30,294 nucleotides of DNA, from IMG/VR virus record IMGVR_UViG_3300042305_000299, positions 1 to 30,294 of that record. One strand, written 5' to 3'. The notes beneath the pieces are model-generated. The model did not search any database, was not told the DNA's origin, and saw only the letters and a program-made list of their open reading frames with translations. Source of the stretch: a virus. Numbering within the stretch: position 1 is the first letter of the stretch; the number at the start of each line of letters is the position of its first letter. Positions 730-19,251 of this stretch are shown one piece after another. Both the position numbers and the translations under genes were made by a program.

Positions 730-3700
730 ATGGCTAATAAGAAGATAAGCGAACTGCAAACGAGAACCCCAAGTTTAAGCGACCTAATATTGGTGGGTGA
801 CCCTTCGAATGGGTTTAGCTATAAGTGTACTGTTTCTGCGCTGGCTACGATTATCGAAACCGATATTTCTGATGGGTACGTTACCTTAGGAACTACTCAA
901 ACGATTAGCGGTGCAAAGACCTTTTCTAATAACCTTACCTTAACGAGTGTTGCAAACGCATCTACCGATACCGATAAGTTTATTGTTCTAAATGCCAGCA
1001 ACGTAGTTAATTTCCGTACAGGTGCTGAAGTGCTTTCCGATATCGGCGGTCAAGGAACAATCACGTTAACTACAACAGGCACTTCGGGTGCTGCTACTTT
1101 TGTGGCTAATACTTTAAATATCCCACAATATCAAGGTGTCATCACTTTGACTACGACAGGCACAAGCGGTGCAGCTACCTTAGTAGGCAATACCTTGAAT
1201 ATCCCTAACTATGCGCCTGATTTAAGTGGCTACGTACCTACCTCACGAACCATTACGATTAACGGAACTACGCAAGATTTAACCGCTAATAGAACTTACA
1301 ACGTAGGAACAGTTACTTCGGTTGCTGCCTCTGGCGGTACAGGAATATCTATTTCGGGTAGTCCTATCACATCAAGCGGAACAATTACGATTACTAACAC
1401 CGCACCCGACCAAGTGGTTGCTTTGACTGCTGGCACGGGAATTTCTATTTCTGGTACTTATCCGAACTTTACGATAACAAATAGTTCGCCATCTTTGGGG
1501 GGAACTGTTACCTCGGTGGCTCTTTCTGCGCCTACGGGTTTTGCGGTAACAGGTTCGCCTATTACTTCGAGTGGAACACTTGCGCTGGCTTTTGATACAG
1601 GTTATTCTCTACCGACAACCGCCTCACAAACGAATTGGGATAGTGCTTATAATAATATGATTGTAAGTGCTGCCGTTACAGGAACGACAACAAAGACACT
1701 TACTTTAACGCAACAAGATGCTGGAACGATTACCGCTTCTTGGACTGATGATAATACCGATGCGGTTACTTCGGTATTCGGTAGAACAGGTGCGGTAGTA
1801 GCTACTGAGGGCGATTATAGCTTAACGCAACTTAGTGATGTAACAATCACTTCACCATCAACAGGGCAGGTCTTAAAATACAACGGAACAATTTGGGTTA
1901 ATGATACCGATGCAAATACAGGTACGGTAACGAGTGTTGCATTGTCTGCACCGACTGGCTTTTCTGTTAGTGGCTCGCCAATAACTTCAAGTGGTACATT
2001 AGCTTTATCTTTTGCATCTGGTTATTCTTTGCCGACTACGGCTTCGCAAACGAATTGGGATACGGCTTACACAAATAGAATCACAAGTTTAACTACTACC
2101 GGTTCGAGTGGCTCGGCTACTTTAATTTCTAACACTCTTAATATTCCGACTTATACCTTAGCTGGTTTAGGTGGTATTTCTCTTACTTCATTGAGCGCAT
2201 TTGTTCCTTTAAGTTATAATAACACAACGGGGCAATTTTCTATTGATAAAGCTACTACTACTGCCGATGGATATTTGAGTGCTACCGATTGGAATACTTT
2301 TAATAATAAACAAGCAACAATCACTTTAACTACTACGGGAACAAGTGGTGCTGCAACCTTTACATCGAATACATTAAACATACCTCAATATCAAGGTGCT
2401 TTAACTCTTACTACAACGGGTACGAGTGGCGCAGCTACTCTTGTTGGGAATACATTGAATATCCCGCAATATAGCGGTGGTGGTGGTACTGTCTCTGGAA
2501 CGACTAATTACATAGCTAAATTCACAAGTTCTACTGCGGTAGGCGATAGCTTACTATTTGATGATGGAACTAATGTGGGAATATCAACTGCGACTGCGGG
2601 TTCTAAGCTACAAGTCAATGGTAATGCTGCTATTGGATATTCTACTTCTACGGCTGCGCCTACGAATGGTTTGGCTGTAAGTGGATTGGTTGGTATAGGT
2701 ACAAATTCAGTTACTATATCACAGATAGGGCAAGGGATGCAAATTGGGGATAATACAAGCAATGCAGGTATTAGATTTAATGTAATTTCAACAGGTATAG
2801 GATACATAGAATATTATCAAGGTACAACTGCAAAATACTTAACAGGATATAGGGATAGTAATAATAGTTACAATATTAGAACAGGTACAAGTTTTACCGC
2901 AGGAAATGGTATAACTTTATTATCAACAGGACAAACAGATATAGGCAATTCAACCTCTTTCTTAAAGATAATTCCTGCTTGGAATGCAGGTACAGGAACT
3001 TGGTTAGATATAAGTACAGATGGTGCAAGTGCTATCGGTAGCGGTGGGGCAGGTGTAAATCCTTGGGTAGCTTATGCAGCAAGCGCAACACAATGGTTTA
3101 CTGCTTCTACAACGGGGGATATATGTTATAGAAATACTGCTGGTAAATTACTATTTGGTAATTCTACTACATTCGCAATGGCAATCACAGGTGGCAATGT
3201 TGGAATAGCCACAACAACAATCGGTAGTAAATTCCAAGTCAACGGAAATGCAGCTATCGGCTACTCTGCTTCTACTGCTGCTCCAACAAATGGATTGCAA
3301 GTTGCTGGTAATAGTATTTTAGCAGGTACTGTTTTTTCTGGTAATGCGGAAACTTCAGCAACACCCGCAATAGGTATAATCTCAGGAACAGGGGGTACAG
3401 GAACGAACATTGCAGGTGCAGAATTGAGAATAAGAGGTGGTGCTTCTACGGGAAGTGCAGCAGGAGGTCCTATAACATTCTATACAAGTGCAGCGGGAAG
3501 TGCTGGTACAGGGGTAAATGCTGGTGTAGAGAGAATGAGATTAAGTACTTCATTGCAAGTTGGAAGTTCTACTACAAGCGTTCCTACAACTATATTTATC
3601 AATAGTAGCGCAACAGCTCCAAATGTGTTCAATCCAACTTTAGCGTTGATAAATAAGAACGCTACATCAGGGGCACTCAATGGTATAGCGTTCAATAATA

Positions 3701-4614
3701 GTGGAGAATTTCTTTCTGCTGCAATTTATACCACACAAACGCAAACAACTAACAGTGGGGATAACTTAGTATTGAATACTAAAAATTCAGGAGGTGGTTG
3801 GAATACAGGTGTAATATTAAACACAAGCGGAAGTTTGGGTATAGGAACTACCACTATCGGTAGCACTCTACAAGTCAATGGAAACGCAGCCATAGGATAT
3901 TCAGCAAGTACCGCAGCACCTACGAATGGGTTAGCGGTTGCGGGAAACATTGCATTAAATAGTACAATAAGTGGATGGATTTCTCCTTTCAATGTTATAG
4001 AGGGGAATACCTATGCTGGCTATGTTGGTTTTCAAACTAATGCCGCTGATATGAAAGTCGGTATTAATAATTTTTATGACGGAACTGGAACAAGTGGTTA
4101 TAAATACAAAACAACAAATGGTGCGGTACAATTAGGACTAAGTGCAGCTAATGGTTTTCAAGTTAATGTTGTAACAAGCGGAACTGCTAATACTAATTTT
4201 GTATGGACACAAGCAATGCTTATTAATCTTTCTGGTGAAGTAAAATTAACTCCAGCCGCCAATACTTCGGTATTAAGTACAACAGGTGCTTATTCCCTTA
4301 CGGGTGCAAATGCTCAATCATTAATAGACCTAGCAGGAACTTGGAACACCACAGGAAACCCTGCGGCTATAAAGTTAAACATCACTAATACGGCTTCGGG
4401 TGCAAGTGCTTACTTAATGGATTTGCAAGTTGGTGGAACAACACAATTTAGAGTTACAAAAGCAGGTGCAATTAGAACGGCTGCACCAGCAAGTGGAACG
4501 GCTAATGATTGGAAATTGGGAACAAGAATTGCAGCAACAGTTGCTTTAGATACTACACAATACATAGAGGTTGAAGTAGGTGGTACTTTATATAAATTAG
4601 GAATAGTAACATAA
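730..4614 (+). CDS. Large repeat-rich tail fibre protein
   Basis: A 1294-residue protein very rich in Thr, Ser, Gly, Ala and Asn and poor in charge, typical of trimeric beta-structured phage fibres. The N-terminus (MANKKISELQTRT, residues 1-50) looks like the tail-attachment end. Three repeat families follow. Five copies of an ITLTTTGTSGAAT...NTLNIPQY unit lie between residues 111 and 581. Two long copies of a GTVTSVALSAPTGF unit start at residues 258 and 398, with a shorter relative at 193. Three copies of a VGI-T-T-QVNGNAAIGYS unit start at residues 615, 823 and 1035, like the head repeats of fibres that often end in an S74 chaperone. No S74-type Ser-Lys protease domain is visible at the end; the C-terminus finishes with a short beta-rich cap (YIEVEVGGTLYKLGIVT). 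It probably binds the host surface. The middle part (about 2690-3190) is more AT-rich than the first half. Confidence 0.85.
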   Translation: MANKKISELQTRTPSLSDLILVGDPSNGFSYKCTVSALATIIETDISDGYVTLGTTQTISGAKTFSNNLTLTSVANASTDTDKFIVLNASNVVNFRTGAEVLSDIGGQGTITLTTTGTSGAATFVANTLNIPQYQGVITLTTTGTSGAATLVGNTLNIPNYAPDLSGYVPTSRTITINGTTQDLTANRTYNVGTVTSVAASGGTGISISGSPITSSGTITITNTAPDQVVALTAGTGISISGTYPNFTITNSSPSLGGTVTSVALSAPTGFAVTGSPITSSGTLALAFDTGYSLPTTASQTNWDSAYNNMIVSAAVTGTTTKTLTLTQQDAGTITASWTDDNTDAVTSVFGRTGAVVATEGDYSLTQLSDVTITSPSTGQVLKYNGTIWVNDTDANTGTVTSVALSAPTGFSVSGSPITSSGTLALSFASGYSLPTTASQTNWDTAYTNRITSLTTTGSSGSATLISNTLNIPTYTLAGLGGISLTSLSAFVPLSYNNTTGQFSIDKATTTADGYLSATDWNTFNNKQATITLTTTGTSGAATFTSNTLNIPQYQGALTLTTTGTSGAATLVGNTLNIPQYSGGGGTVSGTTNYIAKFTSSTAVGDSLLFDDGTNVGISTATAGSKLQVNGNAAIGYSTSTAAPTNGLAVSGLVGIGTNSVTISQIGQGMQIGDNTSNAGIRFNVISTGIGYIEYYQGTTAKYLTGYRDSNNSYNIRTGTSFTAGNGITLLSTGQTDIGNSTSFLKIIPAWNAGTGTWLDISTDGASAIGSGGAGVNPWVAYAASATQWFTASTTGDICYRNTAGKLLFGNSTTFAMAITGGNVGIATTTIGSKFQVNGNAAIGYSASTAAPTNGLQVAGNSILAGTVFSGNAETSATPAIGIISGTGGTGTNIAGAELRIRGGASTGSAAGGPITFYTSAAGSAGTGVNAGVERMRLSTSLQVGSSTTSVPTTIFINSSATAPNVFNPTLALINKNATSGALNGIAFNNSGEFLSAAIYTTQTQTTNSGDNLVLNTKNSGGGWNTGVILNTSGSLGIGTTTIGSTLQVNGNAAIGYSASTAAPTNGLAVAGNIALNSTISGWISPFNVIEGNTYAGYVGFQTNAADMKVGINNFYDGTGTSGYKYKTTNGAVQLGLSAANGFQVNVVTSGTANTNFVWTQAMLINLSGEVKLTPAANTSVLSTTGAYSLTGANAQSLIDLAGTWNTTGNPAAIKLNITNTASGASAYLMDLQVGGTTQFRVTKAGAIRTAAPASGTANDWKLGTRIAATVALDTTQYIEVEVGGTLYKLGIVT
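1060..2472 (+). repeat. Five in-frame copies of a 24-26 residue fibre repeat
   Basis: Copies lie at 1060-1137, 1141-1212, 2080-2154, 2320-2397 and 2401-2472, as two tandem pairs and one single. All encode versions of ITLTTTGTSGAAT followed by NTLNIPQY. The protein sequence is nearly the same in each, but the codons differ: the TSGAA core is written acttcgggtgctgct, acaagcggtgcagct, acaagtggtgctgca and acgagtggcgcagct in the four closest copies. Confidence 0.85.
1501..2076 (+). repeat. Pair of 52-residue fibre repeats
   Basis: Two 156-base copies at 1501-1656 and 1921-2076 encode the same module: GTVTSVALSAPTGF, then GSPITSSGTLAL, then GYSLPTTASQTNWD. A shorter related unit begins at 1306 (GTVTSVAASGGTG). 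The spacing of 420 bases suggests duplication of a larger block that has since diverged. Codon choice differs between the two copies. Confidence 0.8.
2572..3945 (+). repeat. Three copies of a 38-residue VGI/QVNGNAAIGYS fibre repeat
   Basis: Copies at 2572-2685, 3196-3309 and 3832-3945 encode NVGI or SLGI, then a Thr-rich turn, then QVNGNAAIGYS and STAAPTNGL. They are about 630 bases apart and separate blocks of unrelated sequence, so they look like connectors between the fibre's domains. Again the residues are kept while many third codon positions change. Confidence 0.8.
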
Positions 4615-9876: not shown

Positions 9877-10409
9877 TGTTTAATAAAATAAATGTAAGTA
9901 AAACCTTTGTCTTTGCAACCAGCAAAATAATCATTTAAGGTTTGTTGCTTGGCTATTGTTACATCGTTCGTGTAATGTTTAAGATATGCATTCAAAGGTA
10001 TCTTGCCATCCACCATAAGCCTATCGTAAATATGCGGATGCATCTGCGTTGTGCTTGTGCCATTCAAAAACGAAGTGAATGCTTTGTTGACTTCCTTATT
10101 CCAATCCTCTTGCTTTTCGGGGTATCGATTATCGTACATTGAAACATCAGCCGTGAGTAATGGTTGTTCATAGTAGCTTCGTTGCTGCCCTTTGTTTGTA
10201 ATGTGTTTTCTAATCCAATCCAAAATCGTTTCGGGGTCTGCAGAATAAACCTTACCATACTCGCCTGCGATGCCGTTTTCAAATATCTGCACGAGTTCCT
10301 TCATTCCAAGTTCGGGATATTTCTTTTTGATAAACTTTGTTACCAATGCTTCGGTATCATCGCTTATCTTTTTAAATTGTCTTAGGTAGTCAAATGCTGG
10401 ATTGCTCAT
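9873..10409 (-). CDS. Hypothetical replication-operon protein
   Basis: A 178-residue soluble protein. The N-terminal third is helical (YLRQFKKISDDTEALVTKFI), the middle contains GIAGEYGKVYSADPETILDW, and the C-terminus ends in an aromatic GFTYIYFIKQ. The central EYGKVYSADPETI stretch seems familiar from Bacteroidota phage and plasmid replication regions, but I cannot name the family. It directly follows the replisome-organiser-like gene with a four-base overlap, so it may take part in helicase loading; that is only inference from context. Confidence 0.6.
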   Translation of the reverse strand: MSNPAFDYLRQFKKISDDTEALVTKFIKKKYPELGMKELVQIFENGIAGEYGKVYSADPETILDWIRKHITNKGQQRSYYEQPLLTADVSMYDNRYPEKQEDWNKEVNKAFTSFLNGTSTTQMHPHIYDRLMVDGKIPLNAYLKHYTNDVTIAKQQTLNDYFAGCKDKGFTYIYFIKQ

Positions 10410-11026
10410 AGTTCGCTAAATTTTTTGTTTCCTATTAGTTCAAGTTTGTGTGCAATGCTTTCCTGCGTGGGTTCAATCTTTGTGCGTGCCATCCAACCGG
10501 ATACTGCGTGCCTCCACGATTTCATTTTGTTCTTACCTACGAACCATCCATTGCTTTCGTAATAATCATAAAATCTATTAGCTTGATACGTTGCGTTCTT
10601 TTCATCCCACTTATTCATCATTTCTGTCTTAATATCCTCAATGGTTGGCTTAACAAACCCACGAGCAATTACGTTCTTTGTTTCGTGTTCTATCTCATAA
10701 CGAGAGAGAATATCAATAACCTTTCTATGTATCGGACTGCTTGGGTTTAGTTCCGTTCCGTATTGAAAGCGTACAAAGTCAATACAGAGTATTTTACCAT
10801 CGTGCAAAGCCTGAAATTGTTTTCCGTTATCAATACTCACTAATCTTTTTTCATCGACCTTATCGCCAATAACGTAAGATGCTAAGGTATAATTAGGTTT
10901 CCAAATTCCAGCAAGATCACATTTATCTCTTACATATTTAACTAAGCATTTATCGGTTGGGGATAGAGACATAAACCATTCTTTTTCCCAAATATCGGTG
11001 TCAGTAAATCTCTTAGGCATTTTCAT
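10406..11026 (-). CDS. Replisome-organiser / replication initiator-like protein
   Basis: A 206-residue protein. The N-terminal half (MPKRFTDTDIWEKEWFMSLS, then a winged-helix-like stretch to about residue 95) resembles the DNA-binding part of phage replisome organisers. The C-terminal half has FYDYYESNGWFVGKNKMKSW followed by AVSGWM, the typical signature of DnaD-like replication proteins that bring the host helicase to the origin. No phage helicase or primase gene is visible in the window, so use of the host helicase is plausible. The start overlaps the DnaA-like gene by 14 bases; a start at codon 3 (MPKRF) is also possible. Confidence 0.72.
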   Translation of the reverse strand: MKMPKRFTDTDIWEKEWFMSLSPTDKCLVKYVRDKCDLAGIWKPNYTLASYVIGDKVDEKRLVSIDNGKQFQALHDGKILCIDFVRFQYGTELNPSSPIHRKVIDILSRYEIEHETKNVIARGFVKPTIEDIKTEMMNKWDEKNATYQANRFYDYYESNGWFVGKNKMKSWRHAVSGWMARTKIEPTQESIAHKLELIGNKKFSEL

Positions 11027-11453
11027 AGTATTTTATATTTTCTAAAAATGAAGCATCGCTTTCGTAACGCATAAAAGGAATTGATTGTGTGCAGGCTCTT
11101 TTGTATTCCGTTGATATGCCGAGTTCCTTTGCTAAATTATACAATGTCGCGTAATAGGGCATAAAGTAGCTATCGTTATTTTGTATGTACGATGTGATTT
11201 GTTTGCGCTGGCAGCTAAGTGTTGAGTGGTCAGCATAGCCAACCATTACGGCTACCTCTTTAATTCGTAAAGGGAAATACATAAATAAAAAGTAACCTAA
11301 TGCCATTCGCAAAGATGCGGTGTTAACGTACGTTCCGTTTTTGATAATTACTTTCGCTGGGTATGCCGACTTTCGTTTTAGATTCTTAGGTTCTAAGTTG
11401 TAAATCTGGCAATACTTTTCTACTAATTGTTTGGCTTGTTCGTGTGTGTTCAT
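11013..11453 (-). CDS. DnaA domain IV-like DNA-binding protein
   Basis: A 146-residue protein with the DnaA C-terminal signature RIKEVAVMVGYADHSTLSCQRKQI (Asp75, His76, Ser77, Thr78; compare DHTTV in bacterial DnaA), which in DnaA reads the TTATNCACA box. The AAA+ ATPase domain is absent, so this is only the box-binding half with extra N- and C-terminal helices. A perfect DnaA box exists at 15394-15402 within the promoter of this gene's own operon, so it could bind the origin, repress its operon, or compete with host DnaA. The gene lies directly upstream of the replisome-organiser-like gene in the operon. Confidence 0.72.
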   Translation of the reverse strand: MNTHEQAKQLVEKYCQIYNLEPKNLKRKSAYPAKVIIKNGTYVNTASLRMALGYFLFMYFPLRIKEVAVMVGYADHSTLSCQRKQITSYIQNNDSYFMPYYATLYNLAKELGISTEYKRACTQSIPFMRYESDASFLENIKYYENA

Positions 11454-11873: not shown

Positions 11874-12612
11874 TGTACTGTTGTATTGCTTTGAATATTT
11901 GTAAAACTAACTGAGGTACTATTGCGTTTCCTCCTGCTTTGATTGATTCTTTTCTCCATTTAGAAAAGGTAATAAAGTCCAATCGGTCGGAAAGCCCATC
12001 ATCTCCAAAACATAATCCGGACGAAGCTGGTTTTTCGTACCACAAATCCCATTCAGGACTGAGGGTAAATCGCTTTTGCCTAACCATTTTTCTGTTGGCC
12101 ATTGTGCGTTGAAATCCGATGCTCTTGGTGTTGGCAACAAACCAAACTCTGTCTCTGCGATGTGGTGCATTGACGGATACAGCTGGCAATACATACGGCC
12201 ATACTTCGTACCCTTCAGCTTCCAGGTCAGTTTGCACTTCGTGGAATACCAACCCTCCATTCCAATTAACAAGGCCATAAACATTTTCGCCCACGACCCA
12301 ACTTGGTTTAATCTCTCTAATTGCTCTAAGCATTTCCGGCCAGAGGTGGCGGTCATCTTCTTTGCCAAGTCGCTTTCCTGCCATTGAGTAGGGTTGGCAG
12401 GGGAATCCTCCTGTGAGAACATCAATTCGGTTTGCATACTTTGTAAAGTCGGTTTTTGTTATATCGGTAAAAGATTCTGCATCTGGCCAATAATAGTTAA
12501 GGACTTTTTTCCCAAAGTCATTCCATTCACAATGAAAAAGATTTTCCCATCCCATCCATTCTGCTGCCAGGTCGAAGCCTCCAATACCGCTAAAGAGTGA
12601 TCCGTGTGTCAT
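11857..12612 (-). CDS. DNA cytosine-5 methyltransferase
   Basis: A 251-residue C5-MTase that methylates cytosine in DNA with S-adenosylmethionine. Motif I is FSGIGGFDLAAEWMG (residues 7-21), motif IV is GGFPCQPYS with catalytic Cys72, motif VI is ENV (109-111), motif VIII is APHRRDRVWFVAN (149-161) and motif X is KAGGNAIVPQ (225-234). The target-recognition region between motif VIII and the C-terminal motif is short (about 60 residues), so the protein is near the lower size limit of the family. It overlaps NinG by four bases and the nuclease-like gene by 17. It may protect phage DNA from host restriction. A long second reading frame lies wholly inside this gene (11919-12437). Confidence 0.92.
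   Translation of the reverse strand: MTHGSLFSGIGGFDLAAEWMGWENLFHCEWNDFGKKVLNYYWPDAESFTDITKTDFTKYANRIDVLTGGFPCQPYSMAGKRLGKEDDRHLWPEMLRAIREIKPSWVVGENVYGLVNWNGGLVFHEVQTDLEAEGYEVWPYVLPAVSVNAPHRRDRVWFVANTKSIGFQRTMANRKMVRQKRFTLSPEWDLWYEKPASSGLCFGDDGLSDRLDFITFSKWRKESIKAGGNAIVPQLVLQIFKAIQQYNDIAD
11919..12437 (-). CDS. Gene nested in another frame of the methyltransferase
   Basis: A 172-residue frame, same strand, one base off the methyltransferase frame and wholly inside it. It does not read like a random shadow: it has DSPANPTQWQ near the start, TSGRKCLEQLE, then WYSTKCKLTWKLKGTKYGRM, ETEFGLLPTPRASDF, and RPDYVLEMMGFPTDWTLLP near the end. The LLPTP-ASD and F(V)--MMGFP--WT motifs occur, as far as I recall, in stand-alone phage proteins often mislabelled as DNA methylases. 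The C-terminal motif lies where the methyltransferase frame encodes its own conserved end, so both frames seem constrained. Function unknown, perhaps linked to the methylase. Alternatively, its conservation is only a by-product of selection on the other frame. Confidence 0.5.
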   Translation of the reverse strand: MQTELMFSQEDSPANPTQWQESDLAKKMTATSGRKCLEQLERLNQVGSWAKMFMALLIGMEGWYSTKCKLTWKLKGTKYGRMYCQLYPSMHHIAETEFGLLPTPRASDFNAQWPTEKWLGKSDLPSVLNGICGTKNQLRPDYVLEMMGFPTDWTLLPFLNGEKNQSKQEETQ

Positions 12613-12986
12613 TTGTAGGTTTCAATTATGATTTCAAGTTCATCCCTACTCCATTTCTTTAAGCGATTGGTTTCTGCCTCGGCTTCTAATTGCTTTACAT
12701 AATCCTCGCCAAACCTATTGACTAAACCTTGTCGGTACTTGATTAGGTTTCCGTGTAGAAACATATTGCACCGAATGCATTGCCCGTTGGTATTGTGATA
12801 AGCTAAGGTATGAGGTAATCCGAATCGCAAAGCGGAGTGTTGCCCCTGCGAAAAATAATGCCCTGCTTGTTGTACTTCGCCACCGCAAGAGATACAACCT
12901 AACTTTTCATCACGTTCTCGGATGTGGGCATTATATATCGCTTGTGCTTTCTTTAGTAGCTTAGGGAGTGGGGTTAGCTTTGCCAT
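12609..12986 (-). CDS. ninG: NinG/Rap-like recombination nuclease
   Basis: A 125-residue protein of the lambda NinG (Rap) family, which cuts recombination intermediates such as D-loops and Holliday junctions. The zinc-binding and HNH-like core is visible: CISCGG, then AGHYFSQGQHSALRFG, then NGQCIRCNMFLHGN, followed by YRQGLVNRFGEDYVKQLE. The N-terminus MAKLTPLPKLLKKAQAIYNA is the usual helical start. It is shorter than lambda NinG (about 200 residues) but keeps the conserved part. It sits among ERF, SSB-like and methyltransferase genes, a typical phage recombination set. Confidence 0.85.
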   Translation of the reverse strand: MAKLTPLPKLLKKAQAIYNAHIRERDEKLGCISCGGEVQQAGHYFSQGQHSALRFGLPHTLAYHNTNGQCIRCNMFLHGNLIKYRQGLVNRFGEDYVKQLEAEAETNRLKKWSRDELEIIIETYK

Positions 12987-13240: not shown

Positions 13241-13268
13241 TTTGTTTTTGTTTTAAGTTAAAGAAAGA

Positions 13269-13334
13269 ACTCGGTGCAGGGTTCGAACCTGCTCGTTTTC
13301 TTAGAAAGGTGCTACCAATTACACCAACCGAGTT
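13269..13334 (-). tRNA. tRNA-like element with a shrunken anticodon arm
   Basis: On the minus strand the ends pair perfectly over 7-8 bp (AACTCGGT with ACCGAGTT). The D arm is GGTG/CACC around a loop with the invariant GG, and the T arm is GCAGG-TTCGAAC-CCTGC, a textbook T arm. Between D and T arms there are only 15 bases (TTTCTAAGAAAACGA), about six too few for a 5-bp stem, a 7-base anticodon loop and a variable loop. They fold only into TTTC-TAA-GAAA, so no normal anticodon exists. CCA is not encoded. It may be a decayed tRNA, an attachment-site relic or a tRNA mimic. It lies between the SSB-like gene and the 42-residue gene, within the leftward operon. Confidence 0.65.
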
Positions 13335-16350: not shown

Positions 16351-16621
16351 CTTTTGTCAACAACACATTATCAACTTTGAATCGGTAAAACTTGGCTTTA
16401 CTCGAAACATTCCTTTCGATGTATTGGGGGAATACGAAAGAATGTATCGTGAATACTTAGATGCTCAATTCATCCTAACCTATTGGTGTGGCGAGTGTGT
16501 TTTCGATATGCTCAAAAGATTGATTACTTTATTTGAATTAACATTAGCTGCACAACCGAAAGTGCAAATTGAACAAGCACAACCAGAAGTGCAAAAAAAG
16601 CGAGGCAGACCTAAAAAATGA
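16331..16621 (+). CDS. Hypothetical protein with C-terminal AT-hook
   Basis: A 96-residue protein. The body has an YREYLDAQFILTYWCGECVF segment and an amphipathic helix with ending QPEVQKKRGRPKK. The terminal KKRGRPKK is an AT-hook that could bind AT-rich minor groove. The WCGECVFDMLKRL core seems common in Bacteroidota phages, but has no known role. It overlaps the glycosyltransferase gene by four bases. Confidence 0.6.
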   Translation: MKQKDIDFCQQHIINFESVKLGFTRNIPFDVLGEYERMYREYLDAQFILTYWCGECVFDMLKRLITLFELTLAAQPKVQIEQAQPEVQKKRGRPKK

Positions 16622-17616
16622 GAATACTTGTATTAACTGCACCCAACTCTGGTGTCGGCTATCATCGTTTAATGTTGCCAATTTATTATTTGGAAAAGAC
16701 GTATGCGATGTTTACCGATTCCTTAACCGATGAGGTATTAGAGGAAAACTTTGATCTTGTAATTTTCAACCGCTTTATACCAGGCACTACCTTAGAAACA
16801 CTAATTGAGAAGCGAGATAAGTATGGCTTTAAGATTATTTGCGATATAGATGACTATTGGATATTGGATAGTTCACACATTTTAGCAAGTGTATATCCCA
16901 CACAAGAAATTATCAATCACATAAAGATTTCCGATTTAGTTACTTGCACGAATGAAAAGCTATGGAATGAGATTCGACCTTTGAACTCTAATGTCGCTAT
17001 TCTACCGAATGCTTTGCCTTATGGTAACGACCAATTTACCGATGTAAGAGAATACACCGATAAGGTTAAGTTTGTCTATACAGGTTCGATAACGCACGAA
17101 GAAGATATCAAGATTATTCAATTCCCTTTTAAAAAAGTAGCTTCCGATAATTCACTTAGAAACAAGGTGCATTTCCAATTGTGTGGCTTTGATGATAGAG
17201 GCGAGGGTTCGGCAGCCATCTGGCATCGGATGATCTCGAACTTTACTTGCGGATTAAAGTTAGGCGATGTAAGAAGGTTTCTGCCTGTTACGGAATATAT
17301 GAACTTCTATAACGATGCGGATTGTTCTATCGTTCCGCTAAGAGCAACAAGGTTCAACTCAATGAAATCAAACCTTAAACTCTTAGAAGCAGCCACAAAG
17401 AAAATTCCCGTAATAGGTAGCCACGTTGAGCCATATCTTAATTCGCCAATGATAGAGGTTAACTATCAAAGCGATTGGTACAAAGAGATTAAAAAAGTTG
17501 CCGAAGATGCTATTTATAGGCAAGAGAAAGGTTTGCAGCTATTCGAATGGGCAGTTACAAACTTTAGCTTATTTAAGGTAAACGAGAAAAGAAAACAATT
17601 GTATGCCAATCTATAA
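16618..17616 (+). CDS. GT4-like (GT-B fold) glycosyltransferase
   Basis: A 332-residue protein with the start MRILVLTAPNSGVGYHR, a Rossmann-type first strand and glycine-rich loop. The second half has KFVYTGSITHEEDIKII, the strand-loop where GT-B enzymes bind the nucleotide sugar. NFYNDADCSIVPLRATRF follows, then SMKSNLKLLEAATKKIPVIG, the K-LE helix typical of GT4 enzymes (residues about 255-275). It should transfer a sugar from an activated donor to an unknown acceptor: the phage particle, phage DNA or the host surface. It is the first gene of a four-gene glycan cassette reaching to 19251. Confidence 0.8.
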   Translation: MRILVLTAPNSGVGYHRLMLPIYYLEKTYAMFTDSLTDEVLEENFDLVIFNRFIPGTTLETLIEKRDKYGFKIICDIDDYWILDSSHILASVYPTQEIINHIKISDLVTCTNEKLWNEIRPLNSNVAILPNALPYGNDQFTDVREYTDKVKFVYTGSITHEEDIKIIQFPFKKVASDNSLRNKVHFQLCGFDDRGEGSAAIWHRMISNFTCGLKLGDVRRFLPVTEYMNFYNDADCSIVPLRATRFNSMKSNLKLLEAATKKIPVIGSHVEPYLNSPMIEVNYQSDWYKEIKKVAEDAIYRQEKGLQLFEWAVTNFSLFKVNEKRKQLYANL

Positions 17617-18162: not shown

Positions 18163-18638
18163 TGTACATACACCCTACCGCAATTATTTACCCAAATGTA
18201 ATTATCGAACCCGATGTTTACATCGGTCCTTATTGTATTATTGGTGCGCCTGCGGAATGGAAAGGCTATGAGCATTGCGAGGGATTGGTAACGATATTAT
18301 CAGGCACAAGGCTTACGGGTTTGGTTACAGTAGATAGCGGAACGGAGCGCAGAACGATAATCGGTAAAGGTTGTTACCTTATGAAGCACTCGCACGTTGG
18401 TCACGATGCTATCTTGGTCGAGAATGTTACGTTAAGTTGTGGCGCAAAAGTCGGTGGGTTCACTATAATTGAAAAGAATTGCAACATAGGACTGAATGCG
18501 GTTTTGCATCAAATGATAAGAATACCCGAGGGTTGTATGATTGGTGCTTCAGGATTTGTCGGTAAAAAATCTATTTTGAAACCTAATTACAAATATGCAG
18601 GTGTACCTGTAAAAGAAATCGGAAGCAATGCTCGTTAA
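18162..18638 (+). CDS. LpxA-like hexapeptide acyltransferase
   Basis: A 158-residue left-handed beta-helix protein. Imperfect hexapeptide repeats run through the sequence: IHPTAIIYPNVIIEPDVYIG, then IIGKGCYLMKHSHVGHDAIL and VENVTLSCGAKVGGFTIIEK. The HSHVGHD stretch (residues about 77-83) carries the His expected at the active site of LpxA-type UDP-sugar acyltransferases. It lacks the C-terminal helical domain of LpxA, which is about 260 residues, so it is closer to short sugar O- or N-acyltransferases. In the cassette it probably acylates the sugar handled by the flanking glycosyltransferases. A phage copy is notable. Confidence 0.8.
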   Translation: MYIHPTAIIYPNVIIEPDVYIGPYCIIGAPAEWKGYEHCEGLVTILSGTRLTGLVTVDSGTERRTIIGKGCYLMKHSHVGHDAILVENVTLSCGAKVGGFTIIEKNCNIGLNAVLHQMIRIPEGCMIGASGFVGKKSILKPNYKYAGVPVKEIGSNAR

Positions 18639-19251
18639 TGTAATCTTATTAAACTACGAAAGAAAGGAACACACCCAAAGGGTTAAGAATGTAAACTTCT
18701 CTAACGCAGGGTTTCATTTTGACTTTATAGAGGTTGAAATGAAAGGCATATCAAGAGCCATTAACTACGGCATAAGTAGAAGTTATCAATACGACGCTAT
18801 TGTAACGATGGCAAACGATATTTTAATGCCCGACGATTGGTTGGCGCGAATGGTAGAAGCTGCATACGCTATCCCGAATACAGGAATGTGTGGCATACAT
18901 TGCGTAGAAGGTTTAGGTGAAAGAACTTATGTTCAAGATATTCCTATTCATAAAGCCGATGCGGTATTTGGAAATGTTTTAATCCCGATGAAAGCTATTG
19001 AAACAATAGGAAAGTTTAACGAGGTATACGACCCATATGGTATGCAAGACCGAGATTATTCATTTAGGTTACAACAAACAGGACACTTAAATTATTACTT
19101 AGGAGGATTAACGGCTGAGCATATAGGACACGATGTGGGACAAGACACACCTTATAGAAGGATGAAAGATGAAGGGTTAAGCAAGTGCGATAAACTATGG
19201 GCGCAAGAAACTGCCAAATATCAATCTACCAATAATTACGTTATTCTATGA
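18628..19251 (+). CDS. GT2-like (GT-A fold) glycosyltransferase
   Basis: A 207-residue protein beginning MLVNVILLNYERKEHTQRVK, the strand and loop typical of GT-A enzymes. YDAIVTMANDILMPDDWLAR places the acidic metal-binding motif near residue 60. DPYGMQDRDYSFRL (residues about 135-148) resembles the later acidic motif with the ED-D pattern near the catalytic base. It overlaps the acyltransferase by 11 bases and the ParB-like gene by four. Together with GT4, HAD and the acyltransferase it makes a small glycan pathway; donor and acceptor are unknown. Confidence 0.75.
   Translation: MLVNVILLNYERKEHTQRVKNVNFSNAGFHFDFIEVEMKGISRAINYGISRSYQYDAIVTMANDILMPDDWLARMVEAAYAIPNTGMCGIHCVEGLGERTYVQDIPIHKADAVFGNVLIPMKAIETIGKFNEVYDPYGMQDRDYSFRLQQTGHLNYYLGGLTAEHIGHDVGQDTPYRRMKDEGLSKCDKLWAQETAKYQSTNNYVIL

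Follow-up and report, generated by a model that had tools for sequence, protein, structure and literature searches.

The window, a stretch of 30,294 bases from an IMG/VR virus record, very probably encodes a single C5-cytosine methyltransferase that is split into two polypeptides, alpha and beta, read from the same DNA (Table 1). The beta ORF comprises 172 codons and a stop, begins with ATG and lies fully within the 251-codon alpha ORF. The initial annotation, which named no strand, had placed such a 172-codon frame wholly inside the methyltransferase gene, on the same strand and in another frame. This layout is borne out, with both genes on the minus strand, and the motifs quoted from the inner frame were all found there (DSPA near the start, TSGRKCLE, LLPTPRASD and MMGFPTDWT). 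The suggestion of two conserved proteins encoded by a single stretch of 519 bases is likewise supported by homology, by the open frames and by the pattern of substitutions. Most likely, the nested protein does not represent a second, unrelated function but the missing half of the same enzyme, the one bearing motif IX. The window contains phage genes, for example those for a terminase and an Erf-type recombinase. The stop codon of the NinG-like gene overlaps the start of alpha (ATGA), and the 3' end of alpha overlaps the next gene.

Table 1. Positions of the nested gene pair, its motifs and other features of the window
Feature	Position	Strand	Basis or remark
alpha, C5-cytosine methyltransferase large subunit, 251 aa	11857..12612	-	motifs I-VIII and X, without motif IX
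beta, predicted small subunit, 172-aa ORF nested in alpha in its +1 frame	11919..12437	-	
alpha motif I, FSGIGG, SAM binding	12577..12594	-	sequence; near-invariant across aligned relatives
alpha motif IV, GGFPCQPYS, catalytic Cys	12385..12411	-	within the beta ORF; C72 invariant
alpha motif VI, ENV	12280..12288	-	E109, N110 and V111 invariant
alpha motif VIII, HRRDRVWFVA	12133..12162	-	sequence, conservation and M.HhaI profile match
beta LLPTPRASD, opening the variable, module-repeated region	12114..12140	-	evolves as the frame of beta
beta motif-IX-like block LRPDYVLEMMGFPTDWT	11976..12026	-	profile-profile match to single-chain C5 methyltransferases
alpha motif X, GGNAIVPQ	11911..11934	-	21.7 codons of DNA past the Gly of beta motif IX
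NinG/Rap-like recombination gene, directly upstream of alpha	12609..12986	-	PF05766, E 5.9e-27
small protein with a helix-turn-helix-like stretch	11013-11453	-	HTH_19, below the Pfam cut-off
weakly DnaD-like helicase-loader candidate	10406-11026		adjoins the helix-turn-helix-like gene
tRNA-like element	13268-13333	-	Rfam tRNA, 43.2 bits, E 3.5e-8
two glycosyltransferase-like phage genes near the terminase	16618-17616, 18628-19251	+	phrog_7162, E 1.7e-59; phrog_2456, weak

Alpha contains motifs I, IV (PCQ), VI (ENV), VIII and X of the PF00145 C5 methyltransferases and matches PHROG 363 (E 2.4e-64). The match to PF00145 itself (E 1.7e-43) covers only positions 2-168 of the 324 in the profile, and the M.HhaI profile match of alpha spans 14-176. 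Profile comparison with single-chain enzymes also aligns them to alpha over motifs I-VIII. Alpha has no motif IX in the stretch that separates motif VIII from motif X.

A sequence resembling motif IX, LRPDYVLEMMGFPTDW, occurs in beta where, on the DNA, one-chain enzymes have their motif IX. When the beta profile was compared with those of 26 single-chain C5 methyltransferases using hhalign, motif IX was the sole local match; this match is short and of modest significance (P 0.012). It aligns beta residues 138-156, LRPDYVLEMMGFPTDWTLL, with the single-chain motif IX, MTPREWARLQGFPDEFKIV, and the residue spacing of the beta block is also that of E. coli Dcm, which reads RRLTPRECARLMGF. No methyltransferase was retrieved when the 27-column block of motif IX was used for a profile search of PDB. 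On the DNA, motifs IX and X are 21.7 codons apart in 82 of the 89 nested viral loci, compared with 19-22 codons in single chains. Because this spacing agrees, the locus is collinear with a one-chain gene in which the segment comprising the target-recognition region (TRD) and motif IX lies in the +1 frame. The number of LLPTP modules per beta varies among relatives from 0 to 6 and is mostly 1-4. Given the variability of the region, its module repeats and the beta-led selection described below, the variable target-recognition region probably lies in beta.

The motifs of the nested protein had also been likened to those of stand-alone phage proteins, but almost all of these proteins are nested too. 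One truly separate beta gene was found, in Porphyromonas somerae (locus L169), where alpha and beta are distinct, adjacent genes. The P. somerae alpha (ORF to 3600, ATG at 2797) has motifs I-VIII and X joined by a short linker, and the beta gene (3605-4315), which follows directly, contains two LLPTP modules and LNPLYVEEMMGFPEGW. This alpha still contains a remnant of beta (residues 3-58), interrupted by two TAG stops, and two other genomes of the genus retain the nested form. With the P. somerae beta as query for stand-alone betas, only nested relatives were recovered, in viral contigs and two congeneric genomes. Since P. somerae keeps a separate beta gene, beta can persist as a protein without the overlap, and its short linker indicates that the linker of alpha is short once freed of the overlap. 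This un-nesting, at one locus only, serves as an illustrative natural control.

The question arises whether beta is a real protein with a function of its own, for example in anti-restriction or regulation, unrelated to the methyltransferase reaction. Most of its N-terminal half has no recognised relative, and searches of Pfam, NCBIfam and PDB with beta gave no match; it is matched by phrog_1008 (E 3.4e-20). The AlphaFold model of beta alone, built with 44 relatives, was poor (pLDDT 60), and Foldseek matched nothing in PDB to it. We nevertheless consider an unrelated function improbable, as beta is confined to loci with this kind of alpha, its C terminus resembles exactly the motif that alpha is missing, and the un-nested beta still adjoins alpha. 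The precedent of M.EcoHK31I, discussed below, also argues for a shared reaction.

Along the gene, the frame under the stronger selection is alpha over motifs I-VIII, beta over the variable region and motif IX, and alpha again at motif X. In the part of the DNA that encodes beta residues 1-50 and 51-95 and alpha motifs IV-VIII, evolution mainly follows the alpha frame: alpha-silent, beta-changing substitutions occur at rates of 0.203 and 0.134, respectively, against 0.012 and 0.034 for alpha-changing, beta-silent ones. The order is reversed in the variable region of beta (0.053 against 0.161) and becomes extreme in the motif IX block (0.012 against 0.099). In the motif IX zone the third codon position of alpha shows 0.020 changes per codon, compared with 0.225 in alpha-only DNA, while the rate at the first position of alpha, the wobble position of beta, holds at 0.124. 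In the tail of beta and in motif X, alpha leads again. As the substitution order swaps between motifs VIII and X, this stretch of alpha looks like a loosely constrained linker, and what selection reads there is the C-terminal half of beta.

The same data bear on a programmed +1 frameshift in alpha, by which a single fused chain (motifs I-VIII plus TRD-IX) would be made and the beta start would remain unused. Such a shift would fit the constant +1 position of beta, and its product would be collinear with a one-chain enzyme. We regard it as unlikely. The N-terminal half of beta, upstream of any useful shift site, is conserved and constrained (alpha-silent rate of 0.134 in beta residues 51-95, against 0.258 outside), the fused chain would lose motif X, and the separate Porphyromonas pair needs no shift. 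Under the preferred reading of two chains, beta would be initiated internally. No initiation signal for beta is evident in the window, and the start codons of beta differ between relatives. A descriptive scan for ribosome-binding sites revealed purine-rich stretches upstream of beta in many Bacillota loci.

The following sequence tests show that beta is a genuine protein-coding gene. When the window's alpha was recoded synonymously, following local codon usage, the beta frame acquired about seven stops on average and stayed open in none of 200 versions; an independent run gave 6.2 stops on average and 0 of 100 open. In each of 19 diverse loci, the real beta scored higher than any of 100 synonymous recodings of alpha. 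Recoded alpha retains some of the beta score (a mean of 115 of 293 bits in the window), so that raw similarity scores overstate the evidence, whereas the comparison with recodings does not. For changes silent in alpha, the ratio of beta-changing to beta-silent rates was 0.23 (bootstrap 0.17-0.33) in the overlap and 1.45 (0.91-3.0) outside it, in non-overlapping alpha (26 disjoint pairs for each). Methyltransferase-silent changes that alter beta are about 4-fold depleted, and, with the N-terminal part of alpha as reference, the relative synonymous rate of alpha in the overlap is 0.51 (0.42-0.63). Protein-level constraint on beta is thus strong after the methyltransferase frame has been accounted for, and the outcome that the initial annotation had foreseen for a spurious frame, all homologues overlapped and the beta protein unconstrained, is not what we found. 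It is hardly credible that the nested frame does not code and merely reflects the choice of codons in alpha: the letters of beta do follow in part from conserved residues of alpha, which even when recoded yields some beta score, but in all the loci tested recoding introduces stops and removes most of this score, the substitution pattern is inverted in the beta-led region, and P. somerae has an un-nested beta.

The nested arrangement is widespread in phages and bacteria and usually unannotated. All 89 related viral loci have beta in the +1 frame of alpha, and this frame is open in every one of them, whereas a mean of 16.7 stops interrupts the third frame over the same stretch. These loci were picked by beta patterns, so the presence of beta in them is by construction; the nesting and the frame are not. 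The +1 nest was also found in nearly all of approximately 110 bacterial loci. It is present in 19 of 19 Pseudomonadota loci and in 8 further Bacteroidales loci, and its occurrence extends from Bacteroidota, Bacillota and Pseudomonadota to phages of cyanobacteria and mycobacteria. A tblastn search with beta matched 70 phage records, all below 60% identity, with 31-44% identity among the matches listed. No beta match in any frame was detected in 27 single-chain C5 methyltransferase loci of Flavobacteriaceae. Our literature search found no paper describing a nested alpha/beta pair in phages.

Several individual loci have a structure or annotation of their own. Five loci (L110, L136, L143, L144 and L158) are frame mosaics: motif IX is back in the frame of alpha in L136 and L144 and in the third frame in L143, and motif X is in the frame of beta in L143 and L110. 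They are possibly decaying prophages or intermediates of frame exchange. In mycobacteriophage OfUltron (L176, 899-1817), alpha itself is divided between two ORFs, gp75 and gp76, which differ in frame and each bear the annotation 'DNA methylase', and a beta-like frame is nested in the second; the locus is either in three pieces or a frameshifted gene. For four E. coli prophages (L288-L291), RefSeq annotates alpha alone, as 'DNA cytosine methyltransferase', and omits the nested beta; in L289 alpha is annotated as a split pseudogene. These four are the E. coli matches inspected; they lie among phage genes, and none shows an annotated restriction enzyme.

We propose that alpha would form the large domain, providing SAM binding, the catalytic Cys and motifs I-VIII and X, and that beta, made from the internal ATG in the +1 frame, would contribute motif IX and, probably, the variable region for target recognition. 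Both chains would then assemble into an active enzyme marking the phage genome. Its likely role would be that of an orphan methyltransferase protecting against host restriction, because the gene sits in a NinG/Erf phage recombination cluster and no restriction endonuclease family was recognised in the neighbours scanned, several of which have no family at all. The pair probably derives from an ancestral one-chain enzyme in which the TRD-IX segment shifted to the +1 frame; the linker of alpha and the N-terminal half of beta would represent newer, overprinted sequence.

A more general proposition, for and against which we see equal chances, is that a large class of 'cytosine methyltransferases' in phages and bacteria consists of enzymes that need two chains, encoded in two frames of one piece of DNA, with the strongest selection alternating alpha/beta/alpha, born of the move of TRD-IX to +1. 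If true, the recognition segment can diversify by whole modules while keeping both frames open. Many of these loci are entered in databases as one methyltransferase. Should beta be required, such records describe half an enzyme, alpha cloned alone should fail, and recognition sites assigned from alpha would be misleading. The pair is also a clear example from nature of one enzyme encoded by two overlapping genes that share constraint in a position-dependent way, with P. somerae as un-nested control, so that the origin and the cost of overlap between genes on one strand become open to test.

Elsewhere in the window, the acceptor, D and T arms of the tRNA-like element are normal, but the loop of its anticodon hairpin is reduced to 3 bases, and ARAGORN does not report a tRNA there.

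Among known two-chain enzymes, M.EcoHK31I of E. coli (recognition sequence YGGCCR), a C5 methyltransferase of two polypeptides, divides its motifs between the chains as alpha and beta do here. Its beta ORF is said, in work by Lee, Kam and Shaw from 1995, to lie inside the alpha ORF in another frame. The pair described here is most likely of the EcoHK31I kind, a likeness drawn from the published motif division and the nesting. The large chain of M.EcoHK31I has motifs I-VIII and X, the small chain has motif IX, and the TRD has been predicted on the large subunit (PMC3404938). In the window, by contrast, the variable region is under selection in the beta frame; the published location of the TRD departs from the one proposed here and counts against placing it in beta. 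M.EcoHK31I is moreover part of a restriction-modification system, whereas the genes scanned around the window pair include no recognisable restriction enzyme. M.AquI (CYCGRG) is likewise one C5 enzyme of two chains; its split lies inside the variable region and places both motifs IX and X on the small chain (PMC3404938). The window pair differs in having motif X in alpha. The EcoHK31I architecture has thus already been published; notable here are the breadth of its occurrence, the frame swap and the absence of beta from Pfam, NCBIfam and most annotations. PHROG 1008 includes the beta family under the label 'DNA methyltransferase' only. The same nested pair is annotated as two overlapping CDS in Paenibacillus larvae phages Lily (gp62/gp63) and Rani (gp50/gp51), where beta appears as 'g62/g50 internal gene', and in Escherichia phages K1ind1 and K1ind3, where it is a second CDS inside the methyltransferase. 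The labels on these pairs are 'DNA methyltransferase', 'internal gene' and 'Mte8-like', with no function given to the inner frame, for which the present analysis suggests that of a methyltransferase small subunit.
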